From: Microvirga sp. 3-52
Lineage (GTDB): Bacteria; Pseudomonadota; Alphaproteobacteria; Rhizobiales; Beijerinckiaceae
Length of the DNA: 64,000 nt
Assembly (NCBI RefSeq): GCF_018383585.1
Contig: NZ_JAHAMK010000004.1
Span: forward strand, 76,989 to 140,988
Direction: 5' to 3'
Shown: in pieces, positions 35,292 through 48,450 of the stretch
How the letters are laid out: each line of letters starts with the position of its first letter
How positions within the stretch are numbered: the first letter of the stretch is position 1
Program-made: the position numbers and the translations under genes
The notes under the pieces: generated by a model
Databases searched by the model: none
What the model was told of the DNA's origin: nothing
What the model saw: only the letters and a program-made list of their open reading frames with translations

Positions 35292-36644
35292 CTAATCCTC
35301 GCGGAAGGCACGGTTGAAGCTGTCCATCACCGGGCGCAGCATGTAGCCGGCTGCGGTGAACTTGCCGGTCTTGATCAGGACCTCCACCGGCATGCCCGCC
35401 ATCACCTCTACCCCCGGCAGCGACGACAGAGCGCCCTCGTCGAGACGGATGCGCGCCGTGTAATAGGAGCGTTCAGTGGTCTTGTCGGACATGCGATCGG
35501 CCGACACATAGGTGAGCGTTCCCGCGACCGGCGCAACGCGGCGGTGCTTGTAGGGCATGAGCCGAACCTGGGCCGGCAGTCCGGGGTGGACGACATCGAT
35601 GTCGTCAGGTCTTACCTGGGCGGTGACGATGAGGCGGTCGTGCTTCGGCACGAGATCGAGCAATGGTTGGCCTTCCGCCACGACGCCGCCAGGCGTCCGA
35701 ATCCGAAGATCGGTGACGACACCATCCTCAGGCGCACGCACCTGAGTACGGGCAAGGACGTCCGCAGCAGCTTCGGAGCGTTCGGAGAGCTGGAAGACGA
35801 GCGCCTGGACCTCGCGGAGACTCTGCGCGATCTCGGCCTCCCGATCGCTACGCAGCTTAAGGATCTGGGCATGAGCCTCGCCCACCCCCTGCTCGGCGCG
35901 CGCCATCTCTTCCTGCGCCTGACCTTGCCGTCCGTCGATCTCGGCCTGCTCTCGCTCGAGTGCCAGCTTACGCGGCTGGGCGATGACGCCTCTGGCGACG
36001 AGCGGCGCGATGGCCTCCATCTCTCTCTTGATGATCTCTGCGCGCTTCTTGGCTGCATCGACCTGATAACGCAGGCCGAACATCTGGCGCGAGATCTGCT
36101 GCTGCCGCTGCACCAGCACTGCGAACTGCGACTGGTAAAGCTGGCGACGGCTGTTGAAGATGCGCTCCTGACCAGTCAGCATCTCGGCGAGTGCCGGATC
36201 CTTTCCCGCCGCCCGGCGCAAGGGGAGCGGGAACAGGATGGTGTCGTGTCCGTCGCGTTCGGCCAGCAGCCGCGCCTCGCGGGCCTGCGCCTCGCGCAAT
36301 TGGCCCTGAAGCGCCTGTGCGGTCGCCTTGGCCCTGGTGTCATCGAGCTGGATCAGCGGCTGGCCCGCCGTCACGGCATCTCCGTCCTTCACCAGGATCC
36401 TGGCAACGATGCCGCCTTCCAGATGCTGCACCGTCTTGCGACTTGTCTCGGCCTCGACCGAGCCTAGCGCGATGGCGGCACTTTCCAGCGGTGCGGTGAC
36501 CGACCAGATGCCAAAGCCGCCGATGAATACGGTCACGAGCCCGAAGGCGATTGCCGTCAGCCACCGGATCCGCTGGAACGGCGTGGGAGGCGGCGGCGGC
36601 AGGACGTCGGACAGGTCGATGACGGGAGATGTCCTGGCCATCAC
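35292..36644 (-). CDS. Type I secretion membrane-fusion protein (HlyD/PrtE family)
   Basis: Periplasmic adaptor of a type I secretion system, 450 residues, linking the exporter ATPase with an outer-membrane TolC-like channel. A short cytoplasmic tail (residues 1-28) is followed by one transmembrane helix (about 29-52). The lipoyl half-motif GSVEAETSRKTVQHLEGGIV and KDGDAVTAGQPLIQLD come next, then a long coiled-coil stretch (about 110-290, rich in Ala, Gln, Glu and Arg). The second lipoyl half, APEDGVVTDLRIRTPGGVV, and the C-terminal beta barrel with VMAGMPVEVLIKTG complete the protein. Its start overlaps the stop of the exporter gene by four bases. No TolC gene is in the window, so the outer channel must be shared or distant. 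Confidence 0.94.
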   Translation of the reverse strand: MMARTSPVIDLSDVLPPPPPTPFQRIRWLTAIAFGLVTVFIGGFGIWSVTAPLESAAIALGSVEAETSRKTVQHLEGGIVARILVKDGDAVTAGQPLIQLDDTRAKATAQALQGQLREAQAREARLLAERDGHDTILFPLPLRRAAGKDPALAEMLTGQERIFNSRRQLYQSQFAVLVQRQQQISRQMFGLRYQVDAAKKRAEIIKREMEAIAPLVARGVIAQPRKLALEREQAEIDGRQGQAQEEMARAEQGVGEAHAQILKLRSDREAEIAQSLREVQALVFQLSERSEAAADVLARTQVRAPEDGVVTDLRIRTPGGVVAEGQPLLDLVPKHDRLIVTAQVRPDDIDVVHPGLPAQVRLMPYKHRRVAPVAGTLTYVSADRMSDKTTERSYYTARIRLDEGALSSLPGVEVMAGMPVEVLIKTGKFTAAGYMLRPVMDSFNRAFRED

Positions 36645-38449
36645 GCAGCTCCCTTGTCGGCCTGCAGACCCGGTGCAGCGATCATCGGTCCATCATTGAC
36701 CTTCGGCATACGTGCGTCCGGTTTCGACTTCGCCTGCTGAACGACCCGAATCGCGGTGCGCCCCTGTGCGATCCGCTCGGCGATCTCGCGGCGCTCGCCA
36801 TAGGCGTTGACCATGCCGTTGTCGAGCACGAGTACGCTGTCGGCGACCGACAGGATGCCGAGACGCTGAGCGATGACGATGATCGTCGCACCACGGGACT
36901 TCATCTCGTCGATGGCCCGACGCAGCGCTTCCTCGCCTTCGGGATCGAGGCTGGCATTCGGCTCGTCGAGCACAATCAGACGCGGATCGCCGAAGAACGC
37001 GCGTGCAAGCCCCAGCTTCTGGCGTTGGCCGCCGGAGAGCCGCGCCCCGCCTTCGCCGATATGGGTGTCATAGCCCCTGGGCAGTCGCATGACGGTATCG
37101 TGGAGATCCACGAGCCGGGCGGCTGCGATCACCTCCGAGGAACTCGCCTCGGACAGACGGGAGATGTTCTCCGCGACGGTACCGGCGAAGAGCTCGACGT
37201 CCTGCGGCAGGTAGCCGAAGTAACGGTGCCCGCCGGAGGCCATCCACACGCCGACATCGGCTCCGTCGAGGCGCACATGCCCTGTGGTCGGCGGCACGGT
37301 TCCGGCGATCAGGCGACCGAGCGTCGACTTGCCGGCTCCGGAGGGGCCGACCACGCCAAGTACCTTGCCGGCACAGACCATCATCGAGAGGCGGCGCACA
37401 ATAGGTTCGGTCGATCCGGGGGGCACATAGGTGAGCTGCTCCACTTCGAGGAGGCCGCTCGGCGCAGGCAGCTCCATGCCTTTCACGGGTTGCGGCGCCG
37501 CCTGCATGATGCGCCGGATGCGGTCATAAGCGAGTCGCACATTGGTGACCGCCTTCCAGGTGCCGATCGCGCCTTCGACGGGCCCGAGCGAGCGGCCGAG
37601 CAGGATCGAGGCGGCGAAAATCGCAGCCGGGCTCACATCGTGCCGGATCACGAGGAACGAGGCGGCTGCCATCACCAGCACTTGTGCGAGAAAACGGACG
37701 AAGCGGGCCGAGGCCTGAATTGCCGAGGCGCGCGCTCCCGCCGACAGCTGGGCCGCCTTGGCATGCGCCTGCTCGTCGGACAGGATGCGTGCCACGCCGG
37801 GCAGCATGCCCATGGCGGTGATCGCTTCCACGTTGCGCATCAGCGACTCGAAGCGGTGCTGGCTCTCCGAAGAGGCCGCAGCGGCACGGGCAAAGGGAGC
37901 GCGCGTCACGGTCTCGTTGAGCCAAGCGAAGCCGAACAGGATGAGGGAGGCCACGATGCCGATCGCACCCAGAACCGGATGAACCAGGGTCATGGCGAGC
38001 AGGAAGATGGGCGTCCATGGCAGGTCGAAGAGGGCCGTGCAGGCGGAGCCGCCGAAGAACTGCCGCAGGGTGCCGAGGTCACGCCATGCCTGGGCTGCTC
38101 CAGCAGGGTCGGCCCGCAACGCTGCCTGCACCGCAGCGGTAAGCACGGGAGCCTGCAGGCGCTCTTCGAGCCAGGCACCGACGCGGGCGAGCATCTCGCG
38201 CCGCAGGGCCTCGATGACTGCGTGGAGCGCCAGCGCAAAGACGACGATGAGGGTGAGCATGAAGAGCGTGTCGAGGCTCTGGCTCGACAGCACGTGATCG
38301 TAGACCTGCAGCAGGTAGAGCGGCATGGTCAGGGCGAGCAGATTGACGAAGAAGCTCAAGCCCGCGACGAGGGCCAGCGAGTAACGACAGAGCCGGAAGG
38401 CGTGCTCCACCTCGGTCTGGTGGCGGACCTTCATCCAGTTCATGGCCAT
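36641..38449 (-). CDS. Type I secretion ABC exporter (PrtD family)
   Basis: Fused permease-ATPase of 602 residues that drives one-step secretion. There is no C39 peptidase domain, so substrates carry uncleaved C-terminal signals. The membrane domain covers residues 20-290 with about six helices. The nucleotide domain has Walker A GPSGAGKST (368-376), Q-loop GYLPQDVELF, signature LSGGQRQKLGLARA (471-484) and Walker B LIVLDEPNASLD (491-502). At the switch position, where most family members have His, this protein has Gln (VIAQRLG, residue 528). It is preceded by the glycine-rich cargo gene at 38574-39938 and overlaps the HlyD gene, so the three form one cargo-exporter operon. Confidence 0.94.
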   Translation of the reverse strand: MAMNWMKVRHQTEVEHAFRLCRYSLALVAGLSFFVNLLALTMPLYLLQVYDHVLSSQSLDTLFMLTLIVVFALALHAVIEALRREMLARVGAWLEERLQAPVLTAAVQAALRADPAGAAQAWRDLGTLRQFFGGSACTALFDLPWTPIFLLAMTLVHPVLGAIGIVASLILFGFAWLNETVTRAPFARAAAASSESQHRFESLMRNVEAITAMGMLPGVARILSDEQAHAKAAQLSAGARASAIQASARFVRFLAQVLVMAAASFLVIRHDVSPAAIFAASILLGRSLGPVEGAIGTWKAVTNVRLAYDRIRRIMQAAPQPVKGMELPAPSGLLEVEQLTYVPPGSTEPIVRRLSMMVCAGKVLGVVGPSGAGKSTLGRLIAGTVPPTTGHVRLDGADVGVWMASGGHRYFGYLPQDVELFAGTVAENISRLSEASSSEVIAAARLVDLHDTVMRLPRGYDTHIGEGGARLSGGQRQKLGLARAFFGDPRLIVLDEPNASLDPEGEEALRRAIDEMKSRGATIIVIAQRLGILSVADSVLVLDNGMVNAYGERREIAERIAQGRTAIRVVQQAKSKPDARMPKVNDGPMIAAPGLQADKGAA

Positions 38450-38573: not shown

Positions 38574-39938
38574 TCAGGCGCTGAGGCCGCCTAAATCGAA
38601 GTCGCCGAAGTCGAAGTGGAAATCCACGCCCGCCTCCTGCATAGCGTCCATCACCTGCTCGACGGTCACCCCGACGTCCTGCTTCTGCTCGTTGGTCGCG
38701 TCGGAGTCGTTGTTCTGGTCGAACGCGAAGTCGCCGATGTCCTGGTCGGAGTAGGCGTGGCCACCCCCGCCCTGCTCGGTGGCGGCCACGGCGTTGCCGC
38801 CGGCAGCCGACTCGATCTGGGACATTGCGTCGTTGTCGGTCTTCGAGTCGGCATCGCCGCTCGTGTCGCCACTGTTGGCGTTGGCGTTGCCGCCGGTCGC
38901 CGCGCCGCCGGCCGAGTTTCCGCCGGTGGTGTTGCCGCCCGTGGCCGTGCCGGAAGTCGCCGCGCCGCCCGTGCTGTCGCCGACCGTGCCGGTGCCGTAG
39001 CCGCCGGCTCCGCCGGTGCCTTCACCGCCCGTGGCTTCGCCGCTCGCCGCGTCACCCGAGGTGCCCGCGCCGCCCGTGCCGGCACCCGAGGTGCCCGCGC
39101 CGGAGGTCGCCGTGCCTTCGCCGCCGTAGCCGCCGTAGCCACCGTTGGCTCCGCCGCCGGTGCCCGCTCCTCCGGTGCCTGCGCCGCCGGTGCCCTCACC
39201 GCCGGTCCCGGCTCCGCCGGTGCCCGCGCCGGACGTGCCCGCGCCGCCACCGCCGTTGCCGCCGGTGCCGTCGCCGGAATCACCGTCGCCGCCCTTGCCG
39301 AATCCGCCTTCACCGTCGCCGCCCTTGGCCCAGCCGCCTTCACCATCGCCGCCCTTGGCCCAGCCGCCGTCGCCGCCGTCGCCGCCGTCTGCGTCGGCCC
39401 ATCCGGTCTTCACGTTGCCAGAATCGCCTTCGCCGCCGGTGCCGTCGCCGCTATCGGCGTCGCCGGTGTAGGCCTTGCCGCCGTCGCCGTCGCCGCCTTC
39501 GCCGCCCTCACCCTTGGCGATGCCGCCGAAGACCGGTCCGGTCTTGGCGTCGCCGCTGTCGGTGTCGCCGCCCTTGGTGTCGCCACCGAAGTTCCAGCCG
39601 CCGGCGAGGTCGCCGGCCTTGGCAAAGCCGCCGTTCGAATCGTTGTCGGCGATGGCTTTCGAGTCGCCGTTCGAGGTGTTGGTGTTGGTCACCGTCGAGT
39701 CGTTGTCGGTATCGACGTCCGTGTACGCCTTGTTGTTGGCGCTGGCGTCGTTCGCGGCGATCTGCGTCGGCTTGTAGTCCAACTTGCTGGAGTTGTCGTT
39801 GTCTTGGTCGATGTCGGACTTCTGCTCGGCCTTGGTGTCGATATCCTGGTCTTGCCATTGGTCGAGCGAGTTCTTCACGTCGGCGTGGATGTCGAATTCG
39901 AATCCGAATTTGCTCAGGAACTCTGATAGATCTGCCAT
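38574..39938 (-). CDS. Glycine-rich acidic repeat protein, probable type I secretion cargo
   Basis: Protein of 454 residues, no recognised family. Residues 1-110 are very acidic, with repeated DQD/DND elements (DQWQDQDIDTK, KSDIDQDNDNSSK). Residues about 115-365 are low-complexity Gly/Thr/Ala/Ser repeats of two types: GGDGEGGWAKGGDGEGG-like near the middle, and GTGGAGTGG units next. Residues 365-454 are again acidic (YSDQDIGDFAFDQNNDSDA) and end HFDFGDFDLGGLSA. No Cys and no Sec signal are present, which fits export through the exporter encoded directly downstream. ATG at 39938 follows GAGGCTCGAGA. Codon-level repetition keeps several antisense frames open. A secreted matrix or surface polymer is my inference; calcium binding through Asp runs is possible. 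Confidence 0.8.
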   Translation of the reverse strand: MADLSEFLSKFGFEFDIHADVKNSLDQWQDQDIDTKAEQKSDIDQDNDNSSKLDYKPTQIAANDASANNKAYTDVDTDNDSTVTNTNTSNGDSKAIADNDSNGGFAKAGDLAGGWNFGGDTKGGDTDSGDAKTGPVFGGIAKGEGGEGGDGDGGKAYTGDADSGDGTGGEGDSGNVKTGWADADGGDGGDGGWAKGGDGEGGWAKGGDGEGGFGKGGDGDSGDGTGGNGGGGAGTSGAGTGGAGTGGEGTGGAGTGGAGTGGGANGGYGGYGGEGTATSGAGTSGAGTGGAGTSGDAASGEATGGEGTGGAGGYGTGTVGDSTGGAATSGTATGGNTTGGNSAGGAATGGNANANSGDTSGDADSKTDNDAMSQIESAAGGNAVAATEQGGGGHAYSDQDIGDFAFDQNNDSDATNEQKQDVGVTVEQVMDAMQEAGVDFHFDFGDFDLGGLSA

Positions 39939-40726
39939 TCTCGAGCCTCCTCAAATGATTGCCGCCGCCTCGTGGAGTTTTGAGGCGGTTTAGCAAAGCC
40001 TCCCGCACGCGGAGCCTGAAAGAAAGTTGCCGATTCGCATGCCGCAGAATGGGTGAGGAGAATGTTCAGGTCGCCCGTTCAGGCGATCAGCATACATCTG
40101 TAGATGTTTATTGCCTGACGGATCAGCCGAACTGGCGATTTTATTGATGCGCTAATCCTTCTGAGGTATGGGCGCCGTAGATCCTCTAACCTGATGATCG
40201 ATATCGGGAAATCTCGCCAACTCGGCGTTCCCACAGCGGGAGAATAAGGCTTACCTCACATTAGCTTCACATTCTGGCGCTCGGTTGATCCGTGTGAATG
40301 TTCAAACGGGCAAAGGATGGGAAAGCTTCCTTTCTCATCACAGGAAGGAGCCTGTTGTGACAATCGACCTATCGAGAGCGCCTTCGAGGCTCTCTGGGGT
40401 GGCATGCCAGAAGCAATAGTCTTAGCGAGGGCTTCAAGGCGTGCATGAATTGAAGCCAAGCTTAGCGGCTCTATCCCTAGAAATCGACATGAAAAACGGT
40501 TAAAAGAACCGTCTACTTATTGTAGAATAACCATCGCGTATCGTGTGCATCTTCGAAGTTAAATGCTAAGTTTTGCTGTATGGCAGATCAATGGCGGAAT
40601 AGCGCTGGTACTAGTGCCTTTCCGACCGTGGCGTCCAATCGTTGCGTGAGAACACTCGATTTAGGAAACGCAAAAATTCTTGGGAACCGATTCAACGAGA
40701 TGCGCCTCACATGAAGGAGGGTTGTA
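39939..40726. other. Long AT-rich intergenic region
   Basis: Nearly 790 bases without a credible gene, between the divergent starts of the glycine-rich cargo gene (39938, minus) and the LuxR-type regulator (40727, plus). The segment from about 40080 to 40720 is visibly richer in A and T than the rest of the window. It should contain both promoters and possible regulator sites. Small frames such as 40256-40459 (minus) lack ribosome sites. The length is unusual for this compact genome and suggests complex control or recent insertion. Confidence 0.5.
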
Positions 40727-41521
40727 ATGCATTTTTCGTATGCAACGCCCGATGGCGACTCAAATGGTATGAGCCAGGAGGCTCTCGTCATCATTGATGA
40801 CGAGCCATTCTCGCAAGAATGCCTCGTCCACGCGATAGGCAGTGCGTTCCCTGGCACGCCGGTCGTAGGATTTTCAACGGTCGAGGAATTCTCTCATGCT
40901 GCGGAGACGGCAGTTGGGCTCGTGCTGTTGAGAGCTCAGTCGCATGCACCCTCGGGAGGTCAGCTGACGAATGAAGCCAGGGGCATCCTCCAGTACCACC
41001 CCGATGTTCCGATCGTCATCCTCTCTATGTGCATGAAAGCCAAAGATGTGCAGGAAGCGATCGCCATGGGCGTACGCGGCATCATCCCGATGTCCACCTC
41101 ATTCAAAGTCGCAGTCGCCGCATTGCAGCTCGTGATGGTAGGCGGCACGTATTTTCCGCGATTCATCAATGGGGATTTGCCACTGGCCGATGGGACCAAG
41201 GATACGCGCGATTTGATGCCGGAAGATCATGAACCGCTTGTTCTGCCCCATGCCGGTCATCAACCCTACTTCGCGATCGTGGAGCAAACCGGCGACGTGC
41301 TGAAGACAGAGGCAAACGGCGCGACAGTCATCTTTACAGCACGGGAACTGGACGTGCTGGAAGCACTCCAGAAAGGCTGGTCCAACAAATGGATCGCCCA
41401 TTCCCTCAATATTTCCGAGAACACCATAAAAGTGCATATCCAGCGTATCATGCGCAAGCTGCACGCCACCAACAGGACGGAAGCGGTCTTCCGGCATCGT
41501 CAGCTCAACGGCTTGCGTTAA
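40727..41521 (+). CDS. LuxR-type regulator with degenerate receiver domain
   Basis: Transcription factor, 264 residues. The N-terminal half has a receiver-like fold: ALVIIDDEPFSQECLVHAI contains the acidic pair, but the phosphoacceptor strand reads VGLVLLRAQ, with no Asp, and the conserved Lys is missing (GIIPMSTSF), so classical phosphorylation is unlikely. The C-terminal NarL/FixJ-type helix-turn-helix is intact (ARELDVLEALQKGWSNKWIA, then SENTIKVHIQRIMRKL). AAGGAGGG precedes ATG at 40727. It is homologous in layout to 45001-45765, including the GGTYFPRFI segment. Its position between the cargo operon and the Asp/Gln-repeat gene suggests that it controls them; the signal is unknown. Confidence 0.88.
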   Translation: MHFSYATPDGDSNGMSQEALVIIDDEPFSQECLVHAIGSAFPGTPVVGFSTVEEFSHAAETAVGLVLLRAQSHAPSGGQLTNEARGILQYHPDVPIVILSMCMKAKDVQEAIAMGVRGIIPMSTSFKVAVAALQLVMVGGTYFPRFINGDLPLADGTKDTRDLMPEDHEPLVLPHAGHQPYFAIVEQTGDVLKTEANGATVIFTARELDVLEALQKGWSNKWIAHSLNISENTIKVHIQRIMRKLHATNRTEAVFRHRQLNGLR

Positions 41522-41718
41522 CGATCGTAATCCATTCAGGTGTCGCCCGTTGGGCTGGATCGGGTTGTATCGACGTCGTGACGGGTCGCCAGCATTGCCC
41601 ATGGGCCACACCATGATTGTCTGAGACAGATCGATGCCGCCTGAATGGATAACTGGCGGATCGATGCGTCCGCGCTCTAGACTGCCTTGTCCATAACGGC
41701 CGCGCGAGGTCGACGCTG

Positions 41719-42879
41719 ATGCTGCCACCCGACAGGGGAACACGCAACCTGCTCCCGCTCCTGATCGAAGAGCAGGATGAAATCGTTCAGACGGCCGACG
41801 ATGGCGGCCGAGTTCGCCAGATCTCGGATTCTGGGCTACCAACCTCCCCCTCCTCCAATCCCGTCATTGACCCTACAGCGCCGCACGTCGGGCCGATCCA
41901 TCAGGACACCGGTTCGTCACCTCAAGGGGTCACGGCTCCGGCGGCTCAGAACCCGGCTGCACATACTTCTCCGTCCTCAGTCGATCTGAACCGGGCGGAT
42001 GCAATCGGGGGCGGTCATTCAGTCATGAAGGACGATGACAGCGGGTCGGGCACATTCTCGGCGCATGTATCTCCCTCAGGGGCTCCGCATGGGGCAGGCT
42101 TTACTCCCAACGGCGTCTCGCATCACCCGGCAGACGGCGGTTCGACGAACGAAGATCAGAACGGCCCTGAATACGACCTCGAAGAGAGGGGCGCAGACAA
42201 TCCGATGTCCAACCCTGCGGCGGTCGGATTTCCGCCGGAAGGGGCCACGCCATCGGGAACACCAGTCCAAGCCGGGATCCCGATTGCGATTCCGGACAGC
42301 GACGACATCCACATCGTTCAGACCGCCTTCGTGGATCAGGACGCGGACGTTCTGCTCAACGGCTGGATGGGTGAAAGCAAGATCCGCGTCTTCATGGACA
42401 ACGATGCCGATATGGTCCAGGACGCGGACGTCCGGCTCGACATCGACGACAACAATCGCATGTTCCTGCGCCTTGACCAGTCGATGATGATCGACCAGAA
42501 CACTGAGATCGACCTCGATATCTATGAAGCCGAGGGCATCCTCTATGTCGATCTCTATCTCAAGAACGAGGTCGATATCGTGCAGGATACCGAACTCGAT
42601 TTGATGTTGGATGGCTGGAACGGCAAGAGCCAGTTCTTTGTCGCCAACGATCTCGACGTCCGCCAGAACGTCGATGTCGACGTGGACATTGACGATGAGC
42701 TTGAGGAGAAGTTCGCGATCAAGGTGGCGATCGGTGTGAAGCAGGCCATCGATGTCGATCAGGATGCGGATATCGACGTCAGCTACGCGGATGGCGGTTT
42801 CGGCGTCGATGTCGATGCCATCCAGACGGCGACGATCGATCAGGATACGACGCTCAGGATCGATTTTTCGGTCGTCTAG
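41719..42879 (+). CDS. Asp/Gln-repeat protein, probable secreted partner of the type I system
   Basis: Protein of 386 residues, no recognised family. Residues 1-190 are Pro/Ser/Gly-rich and look disordered. Residues about 195-386 hold at least seven repeats of the pattern (I/V)xQ(D/N)x(D/E)(V/I)x(L/V): VDQDADVLL, MVQDADVRL, MIDQNTEIDL, IVQDTELDL, VRQNVDVDV, VDQDADIDV and TIDQDTTLRI. Alternating hydrophobic and acidic residues suggest a beta-solenoid or stacked strands. There is no Sec signal, and the chain ends RIDFSVV: an Asp followed by hydrophobic residues at the extreme C-terminus, as in PrtD-exported proteases. DQD motifs are shared with the glycine-rich protein. ATG at 41719 has only a weak ribosome site, so the start is less sure. 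Confidence 0.78.
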   Translation: MLPPDRGTRNLLPLLIEEQDEIVQTADDGGRVRQISDSGLPTSPSSNPVIDPTAPHVGPIHQDTGSSPQGVTAPAAQNPAAHTSPSSVDLNRADAIGGGHSVMKDDDSGSGTFSAHVSPSGAPHGAGFTPNGVSHHPADGGSTNEDQNGPEYDLEERGADNPMSNPAAVGFPPEGATPSGTPVQAGIPIAIPDSDDIHIVQTAFVDQDADVLLNGWMGESKIRVFMDNDADMVQDADVRLDIDDNNRMFLRLDQSMMIDQNTEIDLDIYEAEGILYVDLYLKNEVDIVQDTELDLMLDGWNGKSQFFVANDLDVRQNVDVDVDIDDELEEKFAIKVAIGVKQAIDVDQDADIDVSYADGGFGVDVDAIQTATIDQDTTLRIDFSVV

Positions 42880-43269: not shown

Positions 43270-44160
43270 TTGGACTGGGACAAGATCAGACTGTTCTACG
43301 AAGTCGTCAACGCCGGGAACTTCACCCGGGCCGGCGAGAAGCTCGGGGTCAACCAGTCATCCATCAGCCGGCAGATCAGCGCCCTCGAGCATGAATTGAA
43401 GATTCCGCTCTTCCACCGGCATCCCCGCGGCCTCGTGCTGACGGAGCATGGAGACGTGCTTTTCCGGGCCGCTCAGGATATCCGCGTTCGCCTAGACGAG
43501 ACACGTCAGCGCCTCACCGAGACCAGTGAGCGGCCTGCCGGTGATCTCAGGGTCACGGCAACCGTTGGAATCGGCGGCATCTGGCTTGCCCGGCGTATCA
43601 CGGAATTTCTCGACCTCTACCCTGAAGTGCGCATCCAGCTTATCCTCACCAATGATGAACTGGACCTTGCTATGCGGGAGGCGGACATCGCCATTCGCTT
43701 ACGCCTGCCGGCTCAGCCCGATCTGATCCAGCGCCGCCTCTTCACCATTCAGTATCATGCCTATGCAGCCCACACCTATATCGAGCGCTTCGGGGAGCCC
43801 GAGAGCATCGACGATCTTGATCGTCATTCCATCGTCAGCTTGGGAGGGGATCAGCCTTCCTTCATCCTCGGGCTGCACCGCCTCACGAATCTGGGACGCA
43901 ATCCCAAGGACCCTCGTCCCAGCCGTTTTGTGGTCAATGACAGCCTGGCTCTCCGCCAGGCGATCGAGAATGGGGCCGGGATCGGCATGGCTCCCGATTA
44001 CGCGATGAGTAACAATCCACGGGTCCAGCAGGTTCTGCGTGACGAGCAGATGCCGACCCTCGACAGTTATCTCGTCTATCCCGAAGAGATGCGCTCCGTG
44101 GCGCGTGTGCAAGTCTTCCGAGACTTCCTCGTCTCCAAGGCGCAGCGCTGGGATTTTTGA
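43270..44160 (+). CDS. LysR-family transcriptional regulator
   Basis: Regulator of 296 residues, start TTG at 43270 giving (M)DWDKIRLFYEVVNAGNFTRA. The helix-turn-helix is NFTRAGEKLGVNQSSISRQISALE (first 20: NFTRAGEKLGVNQSSISRQI), followed by LKIPLFHRHPRGLVLTEHGD. The effector-binding domain covers residues 90-290: GDLRVTATVGIGGIWLARRI, VRIQLILTNDELDLAMREADIAIRL, and GAGIGMAPDYAMSNNPRVQQVL. The form resembles LysR proteins acting on membrane or secretion functions, but the target is unknown. It is downstream of the repeat-protein gene on the same strand, separated by about 390 bases. Confidence 0.92.
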   Translation: MDWDKIRLFYEVVNAGNFTRAGEKLGVNQSSISRQISALEHELKIPLFHRHPRGLVLTEHGDVLFRAAQDIRVRLDETRQRLTETSERPAGDLRVTATVGIGGIWLARRITEFLDLYPEVRIQLILTNDELDLAMREADIAIRLRLPAQPDLIQRRLFTIQYHAYAAHTYIERFGEPESIDDLDRHSIVSLGGDQPSFILGLHRLTNLGRNPKDPRPSRFVVNDSLALRQAIENGAGIGMAPDYAMSNNPRVQQVLRDEQMPTLDSYLVYPEEMRSVARVQVFRDFLVSKAQRWDF

Positions 44161-45000: not shown

Positions 45001-45765
45001 TCATTCGCCCGAGACAAGGGATGCGGCATTATCCTGTGAAAAGTTGAGATGGCCGGTCGCCCACATGGCTGCCTGGGTTCTATTGGAGGCCTTCACCTTC
45101 CGCAAGATGGCTTTGATATGGACCTTCACCGTTGCCTCGGCTACGCCGAGTTCCCGTGCGATTACCTTGTTCGAAGCCCCTTGCGTGAGGCAGCGGAGGA
45201 TCTGGGCTTCACGACCCGACAGCTTGCTATGCAGCACCTCAGGATCATTGGCCGGTGCGGTGGCAACGCCATGGTCGAAATGAGCTCGGCCCTGACGGAC
45301 CTGATCGAGAAGCATGAGCCCGATCGAGGCGGGAATATAGGTTTCGCCCAGGATCACGATCTCAAGCGCCTTGACCAGAGCATGCCGATCCATGCTTGTC
45401 GGGCAAAACCCGTCCATGCCGGCGCGACAGAGTTGCATGGCGGTGTCAGGTTCCATCCCATCGGCCAGAACGACCACCCGGGCGGATGAGTATTGCGCCT
45501 TCAGATGTCCGACAGTTGCCGCGTATTCTTCCGTCAGCCGACTCTCGCAGATGATGAAGAGCAGAGGAACGCTGTCGGTGAATGCAGGTAGGTTCGACAG
45601 ATCGTCACAAGGTTCCTTCGTAAGGACGAAGCGCGTTCCGGAGAGGATATGGCTGATGCCAGTGCGAAGAAGGAGATTCTGACAGATCAGGACAGTGGTG
45701 ACATTCTGGTAAGAGTCCTGAACAATGGGAAGAATCTGTTCCTTATAGACAACATCGTGTCTCAT
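45001..45765 (-). CDS. LuxR-type regulator with degenerate receiver domain (second copy)
   Basis: Transcription factor, 254 residues, similar in layout to 40727-41521. The N-terminal receiver-like half has VTTVLICQNLLLRTGISHIL in place of the acidic pocket, LLFIICESRL at the phosphoacceptor strand (Glu, not Asp) and DGFCPTSMDRH where the Lys would be. Phosphorylation is therefore not expected; a Glu at this site could mimic the active form. The linker contains ILGETYIPASIGLMLL, matching the paralogue. The helix-turn-helix is intact (LSGREAQILRCLTQGASNKV, then AEATVKVHIKAILRKVKASN). ATG at 45765. It probably takes part in the same regulatory network as the secretion genes. Confidence 0.9.
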   Translation of the reverse strand: MRHDVVYKEQILPIVQDSYQNVTTVLICQNLLLRTGISHILSGTRFVLTKEPCDDLSNLPAFTDSVPLLFIICESRLTEEYAATVGHLKAQYSSARVVVLADGMEPDTAMQLCRAGMDGFCPTSMDRHALVKALEIVILGETYIPASIGLMLLDQVRQGRAHFDHGVATAPANDPEVLHSKLSGREAQILRCLTQGASNKVIARELGVAEATVKVHIKAILRKVKASNRTQAAMWATGHLNFSQDNAASLVSGE

Positions 45766-46044
45766 GATGGCTGTGCCCCCTGATAGCGTTCAGCGATGTA
45801 TGGTGCAGGATCGTGACGCCGTTCGCACGTGATGTGAGGCGGAGAGCCTTGGTCGAAAGGTGCTGGATCCAGGAAGCCGATCCGCGTTAGGATCAGGCTT
45901 GGCGACAACAATCGGTACAGGCATTAGTTCCTCGATACCATGGATCCGAAAGGGGTAACTCTCCACCTGACGGATAGCGCAAGGGAGCGGCAGGCTTCTT
46001 TGTACAACCGAATAGTAAGCGGCATCCTCGCCACGATGCAGCGG

Positions 46045-48450
46045 TCAGCCGACTTTGAAGACCGACGGCCCACCGACGTAACATTGGTTCTCCTTTGCGG
46101 ATGGCTGCGTCAGCAACCAGGTGATCTGTTCCTGTGAGAGCGCCTTCGAGAACAGAAAGCCCTGCATCTCGTTGCAGCCCGCCGTGCGAAGAAAATTCTT
46201 CTGAACCTCCGTCTCGACGCCTTCGGCCGTCACGGTCAGGGACATGGCATGTCCGAGCGACACGATCGCCTTGATGACAGCGGCCGCCTTGGTTCCCTGC
46301 CCCAGACTCTGGGTGAAGGAGCGATCGATCTTGATCTTGTCGACCTCGAACCGGTGAAGGTAACCCAGGCTGGAATAGCCCGTACCGAAATCATCCAAAG
46401 CGACGCGGAACCCTGCGTTTCGTAAGGCTCGGAGTGCCCCGGCGGTCCCGCACTCCTCATCCAGAAGAACGCTTTCAGTCACCTCAAGCTCGATCCTTCT
46501 AGGATCGGCTCCGCATTCACGGACGATGGAGATTACATGATTGGCAAAGTCGCAGGACCTGAACTGAACCGGAGAGAGATTGACCGAAACGAACAGATCG
46601 GGCCAACGCTGCGAGGCGAGGCAGGCCTGACGCAGGACCCACTCGCCCAGCGGAACGATCAAGCCGGTCTGCTCGGCAACCGGGATGAACTGGCTTGGTG
46701 GAATGTATCCGCGCTTCGGGTGCCGCCAGCGGGCGAGAGCTTCCACGCCGACCATGGTGTTGCCGCCCATCGCAATCTGCGGCTGATAGGCGACTTCGAG
46801 CCCCTCGCCTGTTGTGAGCGCGATGCGAAGCTCCTCCTCAATGACCCTGCGCAGATTGACGGTCTCGTCCATCTCCGGCGTAAAGACGCGATAGCAATTC
46901 CGTCCTTCGGATTTGGCTCGATAAAGGGCAATATCGGCCTTCCTCAAGAGCTCACTCCGATCCGTCCCGGCTTCAGGAGCAAGCACGAGGCCGATGCTGG
47001 TTCCCACGAAGATCTGATTGCCCATGATGTCGTATGGCTCATGAACCATGGCGAGGATCCGGTCACAAAGCCCTTGGGGGTCCTCCGTCCCTGCCGTGCA
47101 GACCTGCACGATGGCGAACTCGTCTCCCCCCAGCCGGGTGATGCAGTCCTGGCCTCCGACGAGTTTGGCCAAGCGAACCGAGAAATCTCGAATGAGGCTG
47201 TCGCCGGCAGGGTGCCCGAGCGTGTCGTTGACATGCTTGAAGCGGTCGAGATCGAGCATCATCACGGCGATCTGCTCGCCGTCCTGCCTCCGTGCAATGG
47301 CGTGGTTGAGCCGGTCCTCAAACAGAGCCCGGTTCGGCAGGCCGGTCAACACGTCATGGAAAGCCAGATGATGGGCCTGAGCCTCGCTCGCCTTCAGCTC
47401 GAGAACGGTTCTTTCCAGTGCGGACATGGACTGCTTCAGACGCCGCACCAACGCGCCGAGCAGAAGGAGAATGAAGGCGGCGGCAATGGCGGTTGCCGGC
47501 CCGACATCCTTGAGAAGATGGTCCCCCGGCAGTTCCGGATTCCAGATGAAGTATCCGATGAGATCGTCCACATCGGACCGGATCGGCACCGATATCTCAC
47601 CTGATTGCGGGCTGTCGACAACGGAGAAGCGCAGCCCCTCGATCAAATTCCTGTCTGAGACCTGCTTGATGAAGTTTCCGTCGAGATAACGGATGCCGAC
47701 GAGGAGAAACTCCCTGCCATGAGGGTAAGGCACAGCGTCCGTCTCGGGGATGATCTTCATGACGCTCACGGCCGCTGGCCGGCCGAGCAGCTCCAGCAGA
47801 TGGGCGTCGTGAATAGCTCTTCCCGTTATCAGGTATGGTGCCTTGGCGTTCTCTGCAGCGTGGTCCTTGTGCGAAGAACCCGGCTCCCCACGAATGCCCG
47901 CGACAAGGCTGCTGATACTCTCCCGGATGCGTTCGAATTCGTGGTTCGAAGCGCGCGTCGCATCGATCACGGCATTGATCGGCTCATTGCGGTCATTCAG
48001 GATGTAGACTTCTTCCTGACCGAATGTTCGGCTGAGCCAAACGCCGATATTGGCGTCGATCCATCTGAGATCCATCGGGCTCTTGTTGAGCTCCACGATC
48101 GCATCATCCCAGATGGCAACCATTTCCTGCTGCTGAGCGAGCTCCTGAACGACTGCGCGGATGCTGCGGTCCGTCATGCGAAGCTGGCGCTCGGCGGAGA
48201 CATCATTGCTACTGTTGACGGCCCAGAGGATCGAAACCGCTCCGAGAGAAAGGGTTGCCGTGGCGACGAGCAGAACAGGCAGAACGACACTGCGGAAGAA
48301 AGGCGGACCCGCACGATGAATGGAAAGAATTGAAAAACCAGTCTTCAACACATCGACACCGGAGCGATACCCGACGCTGGTTAGCCGAAAAGGCCGCCGA
48401 CGGGATCGCATTAAAAGATTTCTGAGAATTGAAAACCGCCGGATTTGCAC
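46045..48450 (-). CDS. CHASE4-GGDEF-EAL cyclic-di-GMP enzyme
   Basis: Membrane sensor of up to 801 residues. TM1 about 51-77, periplasmic CHASE4-type domain about 85-310 (EMVAIWDDAIVELNKSPMDLRW start: VAIWDDAIVELN), TM2 about 317-336, GGDEF domain about 360-530 with intact active site RLGGDEFAIVQ (439-449), and EAL domain about 545-795 with VGVEALARWRHP and KIKIDRSFTQSLGQ. Both catalytic signatures look complete, so it may make and break cyclic-di-GMP, changing matrix production or motility. The start is uncertain: the first 40 residues are basic and there are later candidates. It lies close to the secretion island, so control of a secreted matrix is a reasonable guess. Confidence 0.93.
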   Translation of the reverse strand: MQIRRFSILRNLLMRSRRRPFRLTSVGYRSGVDVLKTGFSILSIHRAGPPFFRSVVLPVLLVATATLSLGAVSILWAVNSSNDVSAERQLRMTDRSIRAVVQELAQQQEMVAIWDDAIVELNKSPMDLRWIDANIGVWLSRTFGQEEVYILNDRNEPINAVIDATRASNHEFERIRESISSLVAGIRGEPGSSHKDHAAENAKAPYLITGRAIHDAHLLELLGRPAAVSVMKIIPETDAVPYPHGREFLLVGIRYLDGNFIKQVSDRNLIEGLRFSVVDSPQSGEISVPIRSDVDDLIGYFIWNPELPGDHLLKDVGPATAIAAAFILLLLGALVRRLKQSMSALERTVLELKASEAQAHHLAFHDVLTGLPNRALFEDRLNHAIARRQDGEQIAVMMLDLDRFKHVNDTLGHPAGDSLIRDFSVRLAKLVGGQDCITRLGGDEFAIVQVCTAGTEDPQGLCDRILAMVHEPYDIMGNQIFVGTSIGLVLAPEAGTDRSELLRKADIALYRAKSEGRNCYRVFTPEMDETVNLRRVIEEELRIALTTGEGLEVAYQPQIAMGGNTMVGVEALARWRHPKRGYIPPSQFIPVAEQTGLIVPLGEWVLRQACLASQRWPDLFVSVNLSPVQFRSCDFANHVISIVRECGADPRRIELEVTESVLLDEECGTAGALRALRNAGFRVALDDFGTGYSSLGYLHRFEVDKIKIDRSFTQSLGQGTKAAAVIKAIVSLGHAMSLTVTAEGVETEVQKNFLRTAGCNEMQGFLFSKALSQEQITWLLTQPSAKENQCYVGGPSVFKVG

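Follow-up and report, generated by a model that had tools for sequence, protein, structure and literature searches.

The 64,000-nucleotide (nt) stretch of Microvirga sp. 3-52 considered here (positions 76,989 to 140,988 of contig NZ_JAHAMK010000004.1; hereafter the window) contains a gene cassette for a type I secretion system (T1SS) that probably serves its own pair of cargo proteins. The cassette encodes a PrtD-type exporter, an HlyD-type adaptor, two strongly acidic proteins, named GLY (small cargo) and DQD (large cargo), and LuxR1, a LuxR-type regulator without the phosphoacceptor Asp. In the interpretation that we consider probable, the exporter is dedicated to GLY and DQD as partners, and these build a β-rich surface matrix under the control of this regulator. 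A first-pass annotation had described a 454-residue Gly/Asp gene followed by exporter and adaptor genes in one operon, which was borne out by the open reading frames (ORFs), their spacing and the NCBIfam matches. It also placed a second repeat protein, ending in RIDFSVV, about 1.8 kb upstream; the distance (1.78 kb) and the ending are right, but the gene is read from the other strand and belongs to a divergent unit. The interval given, 38574-42879, does include GLY and DQD, whereas the exporter and the adaptor fall outside it (35292-38449), and the regulator gene between the two cargo genes (40727-41521) had been missed.

The linkage of these genes was assessed at loci picked by DQD alone, 19 in all: the window, 13 other Microvirga loci and five from other genera. 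At every one of them DQD has PrtD no more than about 5 kb away and HlyD no more than about 7 kb away, so that orthologues of DQD regularly lacking an exporter, although looked for, were not found. The small and large genes likewise occur together at all 19 loci (the small gene is broken in one), and 18 of the stretches read contain a LuxR1 relative (split in genome G167), the exception being L057. A reverse search of the 48 Microvirga genomes with PrtD (E ≤ 1e-150, 27 candidates scored per genome) gave relatives that are 68-100% identical in all 14 genomes having DQD and in none of the rest, where no match at that threshold exceeded 50%; the co-occurrence check proposed by the first-pass annotation thus places DQD and its close PrtD lineage in the same genomes. 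The closest relative, labelled M. tunisiensis, has a PrtD 98% identical to that of the window. Gene order has changed, as DQD is divergent in the window but in the other genera comes immediately after HlyD, read in the same direction. Judged from these comparisons, joint inheritance of the block explains the linkage in part, yet the block has been kept across families with a changed order.

Within Microvirga, DQD is present in 14/48 genomes (11/42 of good quality), and a sample of the family gave 6/298 genomes, all Microvirga. When named genomes were scanned, relatives with 30-32% identity over the aligned protein appeared in Phyllobacterium endophyticum, Aminobacter, Pseudaminobacter arsenicus, Ensifer adhaerens and Mesorhizobium alhagi, and a distant metagenome-assembled genome (MAG) of Rhodospirillaceae was also matched. 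The family is patchy, because a repeat-domain profile run over 397 genomes of the order gave one match, the window's own genome. A search of the class for PrtD (385 genomes, E 1e-165) also returned only the own genome (1/385), although these misses are weak evidence because only three candidates per genome were scored. The DQD domain and gene X (described below) gave no match to plasmids with the low-complexity filter on. In the Rhodospirillaceae MAG (L060:76-3444), a protein of 1122 amino acids (aa) made of EQDAEVEQDSETEIEVEDS-like repeats and ending in SFNFG stands directly before a PrtD gene (57% identical).

GLY, PrtD and HlyD share one strand with operon-like spacing (a gap of 124 nt between GLY and PrtD, an overlap of 4 nt between PrtD and HlyD), DQD and LuxR1 form the divergent unit on the other strand, and GAGGAGG lies just 5' of the GLY ATG. 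Promoter and terminator scans gave no more than chance level. Between orthologues, substitutions at codon positions 1/2/3 number 73/51/156 and 84/60/162 for GLY (two comparisons), 39/29/81 for DQD (weaker in a distant pair, 122/117/193) and 9/2/86 for PrtD. Because in-frame substitutions pile up at third positions, the GLY and DQD ORFs are, on this pattern, real coding genes and not merely GC-rich repeat DNA.

As the first-pass annotation had noted, neither protein belongs to a recognised family: profile searches gave no Pfam match up to E 1 for either, no NCBIfam family for DQD and, for GLY, only fliE (E 0.11) and ClfB (E 0.35), far below cut-off. The origin of GLY became apparent from ten loci, five in other genera and five that are the most divergent within Microvirga, where the gene in the position before PrtD encodes an Asp-rich protein. 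In eight of the ten this protein is 125-254 aa long as called, with 22-46% Asp, in the style DFDIDIDADIDQDLDQDQDQDVDVD...DIDIDFDFDFA (31-46% Asp in L024, L025, L027, L054, L055, L057 and L058; 22% in L059). The two others, L023 (401 aa) and L026 (378 aa), are intermediates, that is, Asp-rich proteins with a Gly-rich middle.

Homology was tested with profiles of the two ends built from the eight small Asp-rich cargoes, against which eight GLY proteins (the broken one of G167 omitted) and the two intermediates were scored, each with 1000 composition-preserving shuffles (999 scored in two cases). The N ends of GLY reached 40.8-62.0 bits, the C ends 46.6-51.9 bits and the ends of the intermediates 61.4-77.2 bits, and all 20 tests scored above every shuffle; for the window GLY, residues 1-60 scored 62.0 bits (best of 1000 shuffles, 21.6) and residues 395-454 scored 51.9 bits (best of 1000, 18.4). 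Because both ends match beyond all shuffles, GLY is, by these profiles, homologous at both ends to the small Asp-rich cargo, and the Gly-rich form is a variant that carries a Gly-rich middle. The earlier description of a glycine-rich cargo therefore holds for the 454-aa protein of the window, but not for its type, which is the small Asp-rich protein. In G167 (L020, L085) no long open frame exists for GLY and the LuxR1 gene is split, whereas the frames of DQD and PrtD are open (that of HlyD is cut by the locus end in L020); this cassette may be decaying.

DQD consists of a conserved start, in which D5, R9 and L11 are invariant in 15/15 aligned relatives and G7, L12 and P13 are kept in at least 90%, a seven-unit repeat domain and, between them, a variable linker of some 180 residues. 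The units of the window protein have a central Q-[DN], with Q at 207, 234, 260, 289, 316, 348 and 375 (spacing 26-32), and the domain alternates hydrophobic and acidic residues, with 28 invariant columns in the alignment of 19 relatives. Nine near relatives share the ending IDF[ST]V[VI]. Pfam searches with 15 relatives gave one weak unrelated match in one of them (E 0.079), and a DQD profile run against solved structures found one ribosomal chain only (E 0.064). A low-confidence AlphaFold model of the full protein contains seven strands (18-26 residues each) corresponding to the seven repeats, a hint only; the repeats are likely β-strand repeats, as far as such a model can be followed. With this model foldseek returned nothing significant (best E 0.063), and its top matches, pore-forming proteins, were rejected as a by-product of long β-hairpins.

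Where the Gly-rich middle is absent, the small cargo gene is preceded by a further Asp-rich gene, X, of 215-277 aa as called. X belongs to the cassette in 8/19 loci (L024, L025, L084, L054, L055 and L057-L059), namely in 3/14 Microvirga genomes (full-length matches) and 5/5 other-genus loci, and is mutually exclusive with the Gly-rich middle, found in the 11 remaining DQD loci. Aligned by hhalign, the X profile matches the repeat domain of DQD at E 4.6e-9, with a caveat for composition. Pfam searches with seven X proteins gave ChapFlgA_N in two (best E 1.9e-5) and two other families in one X each.

The exporter pair is readily assigned. The window PrtD scores 621 bits with TIGR01842 (NCBIfam cut-off 510.15) and the window HlyD 361.6 bits with TIGR01843 (cut-off 208.65), and the closest solved relative of the former is 5l22 (E 1.1e-115). 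A single gene for a TolC-type channel scores over cut-off in the genome, on contig C55, outside the cassette.

The cargo of PrtD-type exporters carries an uncleaved C-terminal signal, often an acidic residue followed by hydrophobic residues. The tails agree with this in part: DF occurs in the last 12 residues of 19/19 large and 19/19 small cargoes (including the G167 fragment), versus 3/42 ORFs of the window, these 42 being a greedy non-overlapping set of at least 150 aa and not all genes. The two proteins are also the only ones of the 42 with a charge of -30 or less. Their best 15-residue Kyte-Doolittle means are 0.45 (GLY) and 1.27 (DQD) versus 2.77 for PrtD and 2.24 for HlyD, and neither has a Sec-like signal, a hydrophobic N-terminus or a membrane segment. 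The PrtD structure has a basic entry path for the substrate, suggested to suit acidic substrates (PMC8277102), and substrates of such transporters are reported to tend to negative charge, with cationic stretches blocking export (PMC9223453). Because GLY and DQD are acidic, free of hydrophobic stretches and provided with DF tails, and in view of this basic path and substrate preference, export of both by the linked exporter is likely.

LuxR1 matches GerE (70.2 bits), and its receiver domain scores 19.1 bits with Response_reg, under the Pfam cut-off of 30.2. It has Arg at the position expected for the phosphoacceptor Asp. Seventeen locus-linked regulators were aligned, 13 from DQD loci and four from other cassettes, and the printed motif was read by eye because aligner gaps shift the column by one; after the LVLL-type strand, R, K or N occurs in 13/13 of the former, S or K in three of the latter, and only the Sinorhizobium regulator keeps D. 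The Asp is thus lost in 16/17 of them, and since the receiver lacks it, any control by LuxR1 would probably be independent of phosphorylation.

On these grounds the following sequence of events can be proposed. LuxR1 would control the cassette, probably without being phosphorylated, and GLY and DQD would be made as soluble, strongly acidic and largely unfolded chains. Their uncleaved tails, acidic and then hydrophobic (..IDFSVV and ..FDFGDFDL..), would be recognised by the exporter, and the chains would be exported by way of PrtD, HlyD and a TolC-like channel whose gene lies apart from the cassette. Once outside the cell, cations such as Ca2+ would probably neutralise the carboxylates and allow D-x-D-x strands to form β-sheet, so that GLY and DQD could co-assemble into a surface matrix, fibre or coat, possibly with a role in adhesion, in which the Gly-rich middle of GLY may act as a spacer or elastic part.

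Cassettes of the same plan but with other cargo were recognised at four further Microvirga PrtD genes (44-50% identical) and at plasmid loci of Rhizobium and Sinorhizobium. In the TQ class, a small cargo of 152-304 aa ('PE-PGRS family protein' in two records) is accompanied by a partner of 356-474 aa, and both contain a unit like TQxNxxxxDQxAxQxAGxGGxGGxGN. The SDHD class, from one genome (G171), has two small proteins (80 and 87 aa) with a 418-aa partner; there, the 80- and 87-aa genes stand in tandem before PrtD (50% identical; L080:6030-6907), and the 418-aa partner (L080:10345-11601) carries the same motif. The 87- and 418-aa proteins have no Pfam match.

The kinship of partners was scored by local alignment of the small cargo (its end modules if longer than 150 aa) with six large cargoes, against 300 shuffles. 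TQ small cargoes match TQ large ones with z-scores of 6.6-15.2 (0/300 shuffles as good), and the SDHD small cargo matches its own large cargo at 5.8, versus 2.8-5.0 with TQ; the other cross-class pairs give -1.6 to 1.6, and the window GLY is the exception to this block pattern. Bradyrhizobium sp. 195 and 186 have the annotated order large, small, ABC, HlyD, regulator. Their small cargo scores 12.8-16.2 with the adjoining large cargo and 8.1-10.0 with two TQ partners of other genera, but -0.6 to -0.1 with DQD and SDHD large cargoes, and these cassettes therefore belong to the TQ class. The Bradyrhizobium large cargo (L096:11395-12807, L097:11596-13020) has about 470 aa, apparently as four tandem units of 90-100 aa or so, and the 152-aa small protein carries the same unit.

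Like DQD, the TQ large partner is linked to its exporter. It is present in 6/48 Microvirga genomes, with PrtD, HlyD, the small cargo and a LuxR relative adjoining in 6/6, although in G122 PrtD is split over two frames. Among 17 plasmid records with this partner, two of which (H25 and H26) were left out of the count, eight have an adjoining PrtD by coordinates and five of the seven others read have PrtD. In the two exceptions, L093 and L098, PrtD was not found and the large gene is broken or truncated. The latter locus, of Rhizobium sp. CC1099, holds a 158-aa piece of the TQ large cargo directly before an HlyD piece (L098:9001-10336), and neither PrtD nor the small cargo was found there, as if after a deletion. 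The Microvirga assemblies G162 and G188 contain both DQD and TQ cassettes, but have 7% and 9% estimated contamination.

These cassettes may be members of an unrecognised alphaproteobacterial class of T1SS, in which LuxR, PrtD and HlyD accompany one small and one large cargo. Outside the cell the two cargoes would co-polymerise by means of a Gln-bearing repeat specific to each class, giving a matrix of curli-like logic by the type I route. We put this forward tentatively, as a proposal that falls somewhat short of an even chance, and the division into at least three repeat classes (DQD, TQ and SDHD) is part of it and equally tentative.

Several observations weigh against a dedicated cassette that exports GLY and DQD as matrix partners. 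The tails are not uniform: X has a DF ending in 0/8 loci, K or R occurs in the last 12 residues of 15/19 large cargoes (0/19 small), and the ending [FLI][VAI], reported for RTX proteins (PMC8861453), is found in only 8/19 large and 4/19 small cargoes. DQD is dispensable, as 34/48 Microvirga genomes gave no DQD match. Structure prediction, which the first-pass annotation had proposed for the repeats, drew the seven strands but with low confidence: the mean predicted local distance difference test score (pLDDT) was 44.7 for full DQD with 14 sequences (mostly 50-70 per block in the repeat domain) and 40.1, worse than full-length, for the repeat domain alone with 19 sequences. Furthermore, the paired-cargo plan is not general for PrtD exporters (four plasmid loci were examined), because no repeat pair is evident at the Indioceanicola plasmid locus or on the Rhodospirillum rubrum plasmid (L088:2320-4812), where PrtD (43% identical) has a hemolysin-type calcium-binding (RTX-type) gene and a DUF6447 gene nearby.

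A last point concerns the two window proteins themselves. The sharing of DQD motifs is weak here: QD is in modest excess, with five occurrences in GLY and seven in DQD, counts that 125 and 85 of 5000 composition shuffles reach, and the GLY end modules align with their own DQD at z 1.1 (49/300 shuffles as good), no better than with a large cargo from the TQ class, which is unrelated (z 1.5). A shared motif in the window was consequently rejected as evidence for partnership. The window GLY reaches z 2.7 with the Aminobacter DQD, and the Asp-rich form of the small cargo in other genomes reaches 6.7-6.8 with its DQD partners (0/300 shuffles), values that come partly from the strict D-x alternation destroyed by shuffling.

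Set beside the matrix interpretation, it is conceivable, if unlikely, that both proteins are exported but remain free acidic polymers that sequester Ca2+ or other cations, prevent adhesion or protect from desiccation, with no ordered matrix. The Asp content of the small cargoes (22-46%), the low-complexity middle of GLY and the low-confidence models all suit such polymers, but a plain polyanion needs neither the 28 invariant columns of the DQD repeat domain in 19 relatives nor the regular Q spacing, and the small and large genes stay together in 19/19 loci (one small gene broken). Rather improbable, too, is the proposal that only GLY is exported and DQD is a cytoplasmic or envelope-bound partner of the exporter, such as a chaperone, an anchor or a regulator-linked protein. 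It would account for the place of DQD beside the regulator in a divergent unit, its conserved N-terminal motif, the K/R tails seen in large but not small cargoes, and a GLY-DQD match not beyond composition; against it, DQD equals GLY in acidity, lacks both a Sec-like signal and a membrane segment, bears the DF tail in 19/19 cases and follows HlyD on the same strand in the five non-Microvirga records, and in the sister cassettes the large protein clearly carries the repeats of the small one.

Type I systems export toxins and bacteriocins, and the top foldseek matches of the weak DQD model were pore-forming hairpins, so that a secreted antibacterial or host-directed effector pair, instead of structural material, was considered and judged very unlikely; the matches are not significant (best E 0.063, low-confidence model) and the cassette proteins scanned contain no catalytic, toxin or immunity domain, although the other loci had no systematic search for immunity genes. 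That the two genes are a chance product, low-complexity ORFs in high-GC DNA near an ordinary exporter, is hardly credible despite the long antisense ORFs overlapping GLY and the 15-nt-period DNA array encoding its Gly-rich part, given the in-frame third-position excess, homologues with the same neighbours in many genomes and end modules that match beyond composition. A matrix-forming cargo pair with its own exporter thus stays the interpretation to be preferred.

The features of the cassette and its surroundings are collected in Table 1. The second LuxR-type gene and the CHASE4-GGDEF-EAL gene (45001-48450) also stand beside the cassette in L017, and in Sinorhizobium B11 and Rhizobium BT04 cyclase genes adjoin the TQ cassette. 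A link of the cassette with cyclic di-GMP is therefore possible as judged from gene neighbourhood, and the GGDEF-EAL and second LuxR-type genes may or may not belong to the cassette.

Table 1. Positions of cassette features and neighbouring genes in the window
Feature	Position	Strand	Basis or remark
HlyD-type periplasmic adaptor, 450 aa	35292..36644	-	TIGR01843; 4-nt overlap of its start with the PrtD gene
PrtD-type type I secretion ABC permease/ATPase, 602 aa	36641..38449	-	TIGR01842
GLY, small-cargo gene in Gly-rich form, 454 aa, charge -57, isoelectric point (pI) 4.05	38574..39938	-	ORF
GLY N-terminal module, residues 1-60	39759..39938	-	profile match to small Asp-rich cargoes
GLY C-terminal module with DFGDF (residues 395-454 plus stop), candidate export signal	38574..38756	-	profile match
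LuxR1, LuxR-type regulator, 264 aa, degenerate receiver domain	40727..41521	+	GerE
DQD, large cargo, 386 aa, charge -55, pI 4.05	41719..42879	+	ORF
DQD conserved N-terminal motif MLPPDRGTRNLLPL	41719..41760	+	alignment of relatives
DQD repeat domain, seven units, ends IDFSVV	42286..42879	+	alignment of 19 relatives
LysR gene	43270-44160	+	family match
Second LuxR-type gene	45001-45765	-	family match
CHASE4-GGDEF-EAL gene	46045-48450	-	family match

The cargo of type I systems is mainly thought of as RTX toxins, proteases, lipases and adhesins. If the matrix interpretation is true, the cassette would represent a new kind of surface material that plant-associated soil bacteria secrete, one with an exporter and a regulator of its own, and would offer a pointer to the substrates of orphan rhizobial exporters. 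Its simple sequences would also be suited to the study of acidic chains that are unfolded in the cell and ordered outside.

A search of the open-access literature, covering titles and the starts of abstracts, with subscription journals and preprints outside its scope, found no description of this cassette among the papers listed. RTX proteins are likewise acidic, Gly/Asp-rich type I cargo, but GGxGxD occurs only twice in GLY (shuffle mean 1.26) and once in DQD (mean 0.03), with no array, and GGxGxDxx[hydrophobic] has one match in GLY and none in DQD; as there is neither a nonapeptide repeat array nor a Pfam RTX match, RTX membership was rejected. The TQ-class plasmid loci of Rhizobium and Sinorhizobium annotated as 'PE-PGRS family protein' have the same five genes (LuxR, PrtD, HlyD, a small Gly-rich and a large repeat cargo) and differ from the window in their exporters, about 45% identical, and in their repeat motif. 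Membership of the PE-PGRS family itself was rejected because neither GLY nor the so-named Sinorhizobium protein has a Pfam match, and the name reflects composition only.

Curli consist of two secreted partners, CsgA and CsgB, with shared Q/N-bearing repeats, the LuxR-type CsgD is encoded beside them, and the exporter is CsgG. The likeness to the cassette lies in this logic only (two partners, Q/N repeats and an adjoining LuxR-type regulator), since the cassette uses a T1SS where curli use CsgG. GLY and DQD have no curlin match in Pfam, and LuxR1 reaches 55.8 bits with the CsgD family, over the DNA-binding part only, far below the cut-off of 250; curli membership was rejected on both counts.

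The nearest known systems are the PrtD-type T1SSs, such as PrtD of Aquifex and Dickeya, AprD of Pseudomonas and rhizobial PrsD, with which the cassette shares the TIGR01842 and TIGR01843 subfamilies, a cargo gene upstream of the exporter gene, and an outer-membrane channel whose gene is elsewhere in the genome. The R. leguminosarum PrsDE reportedly exports 13 or more dissimilar proteins, which come from diverse regions (PMC2275737), unlike the present exporter, to which the cargo is linked; for strain R. leguminosarum 3841 that source gives four predicted systems, of which two have no known substrates within 10 kb. The secretion system is therefore not the undescribed one that the first-pass annotation had suggested, since the machine is a known one, a PrtD-type T1SS. 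The novelty is the cargo class: non-RTX proteins with Asp/Gln or Gly repeats that come in pairs, together with a linked LuxR regulator.

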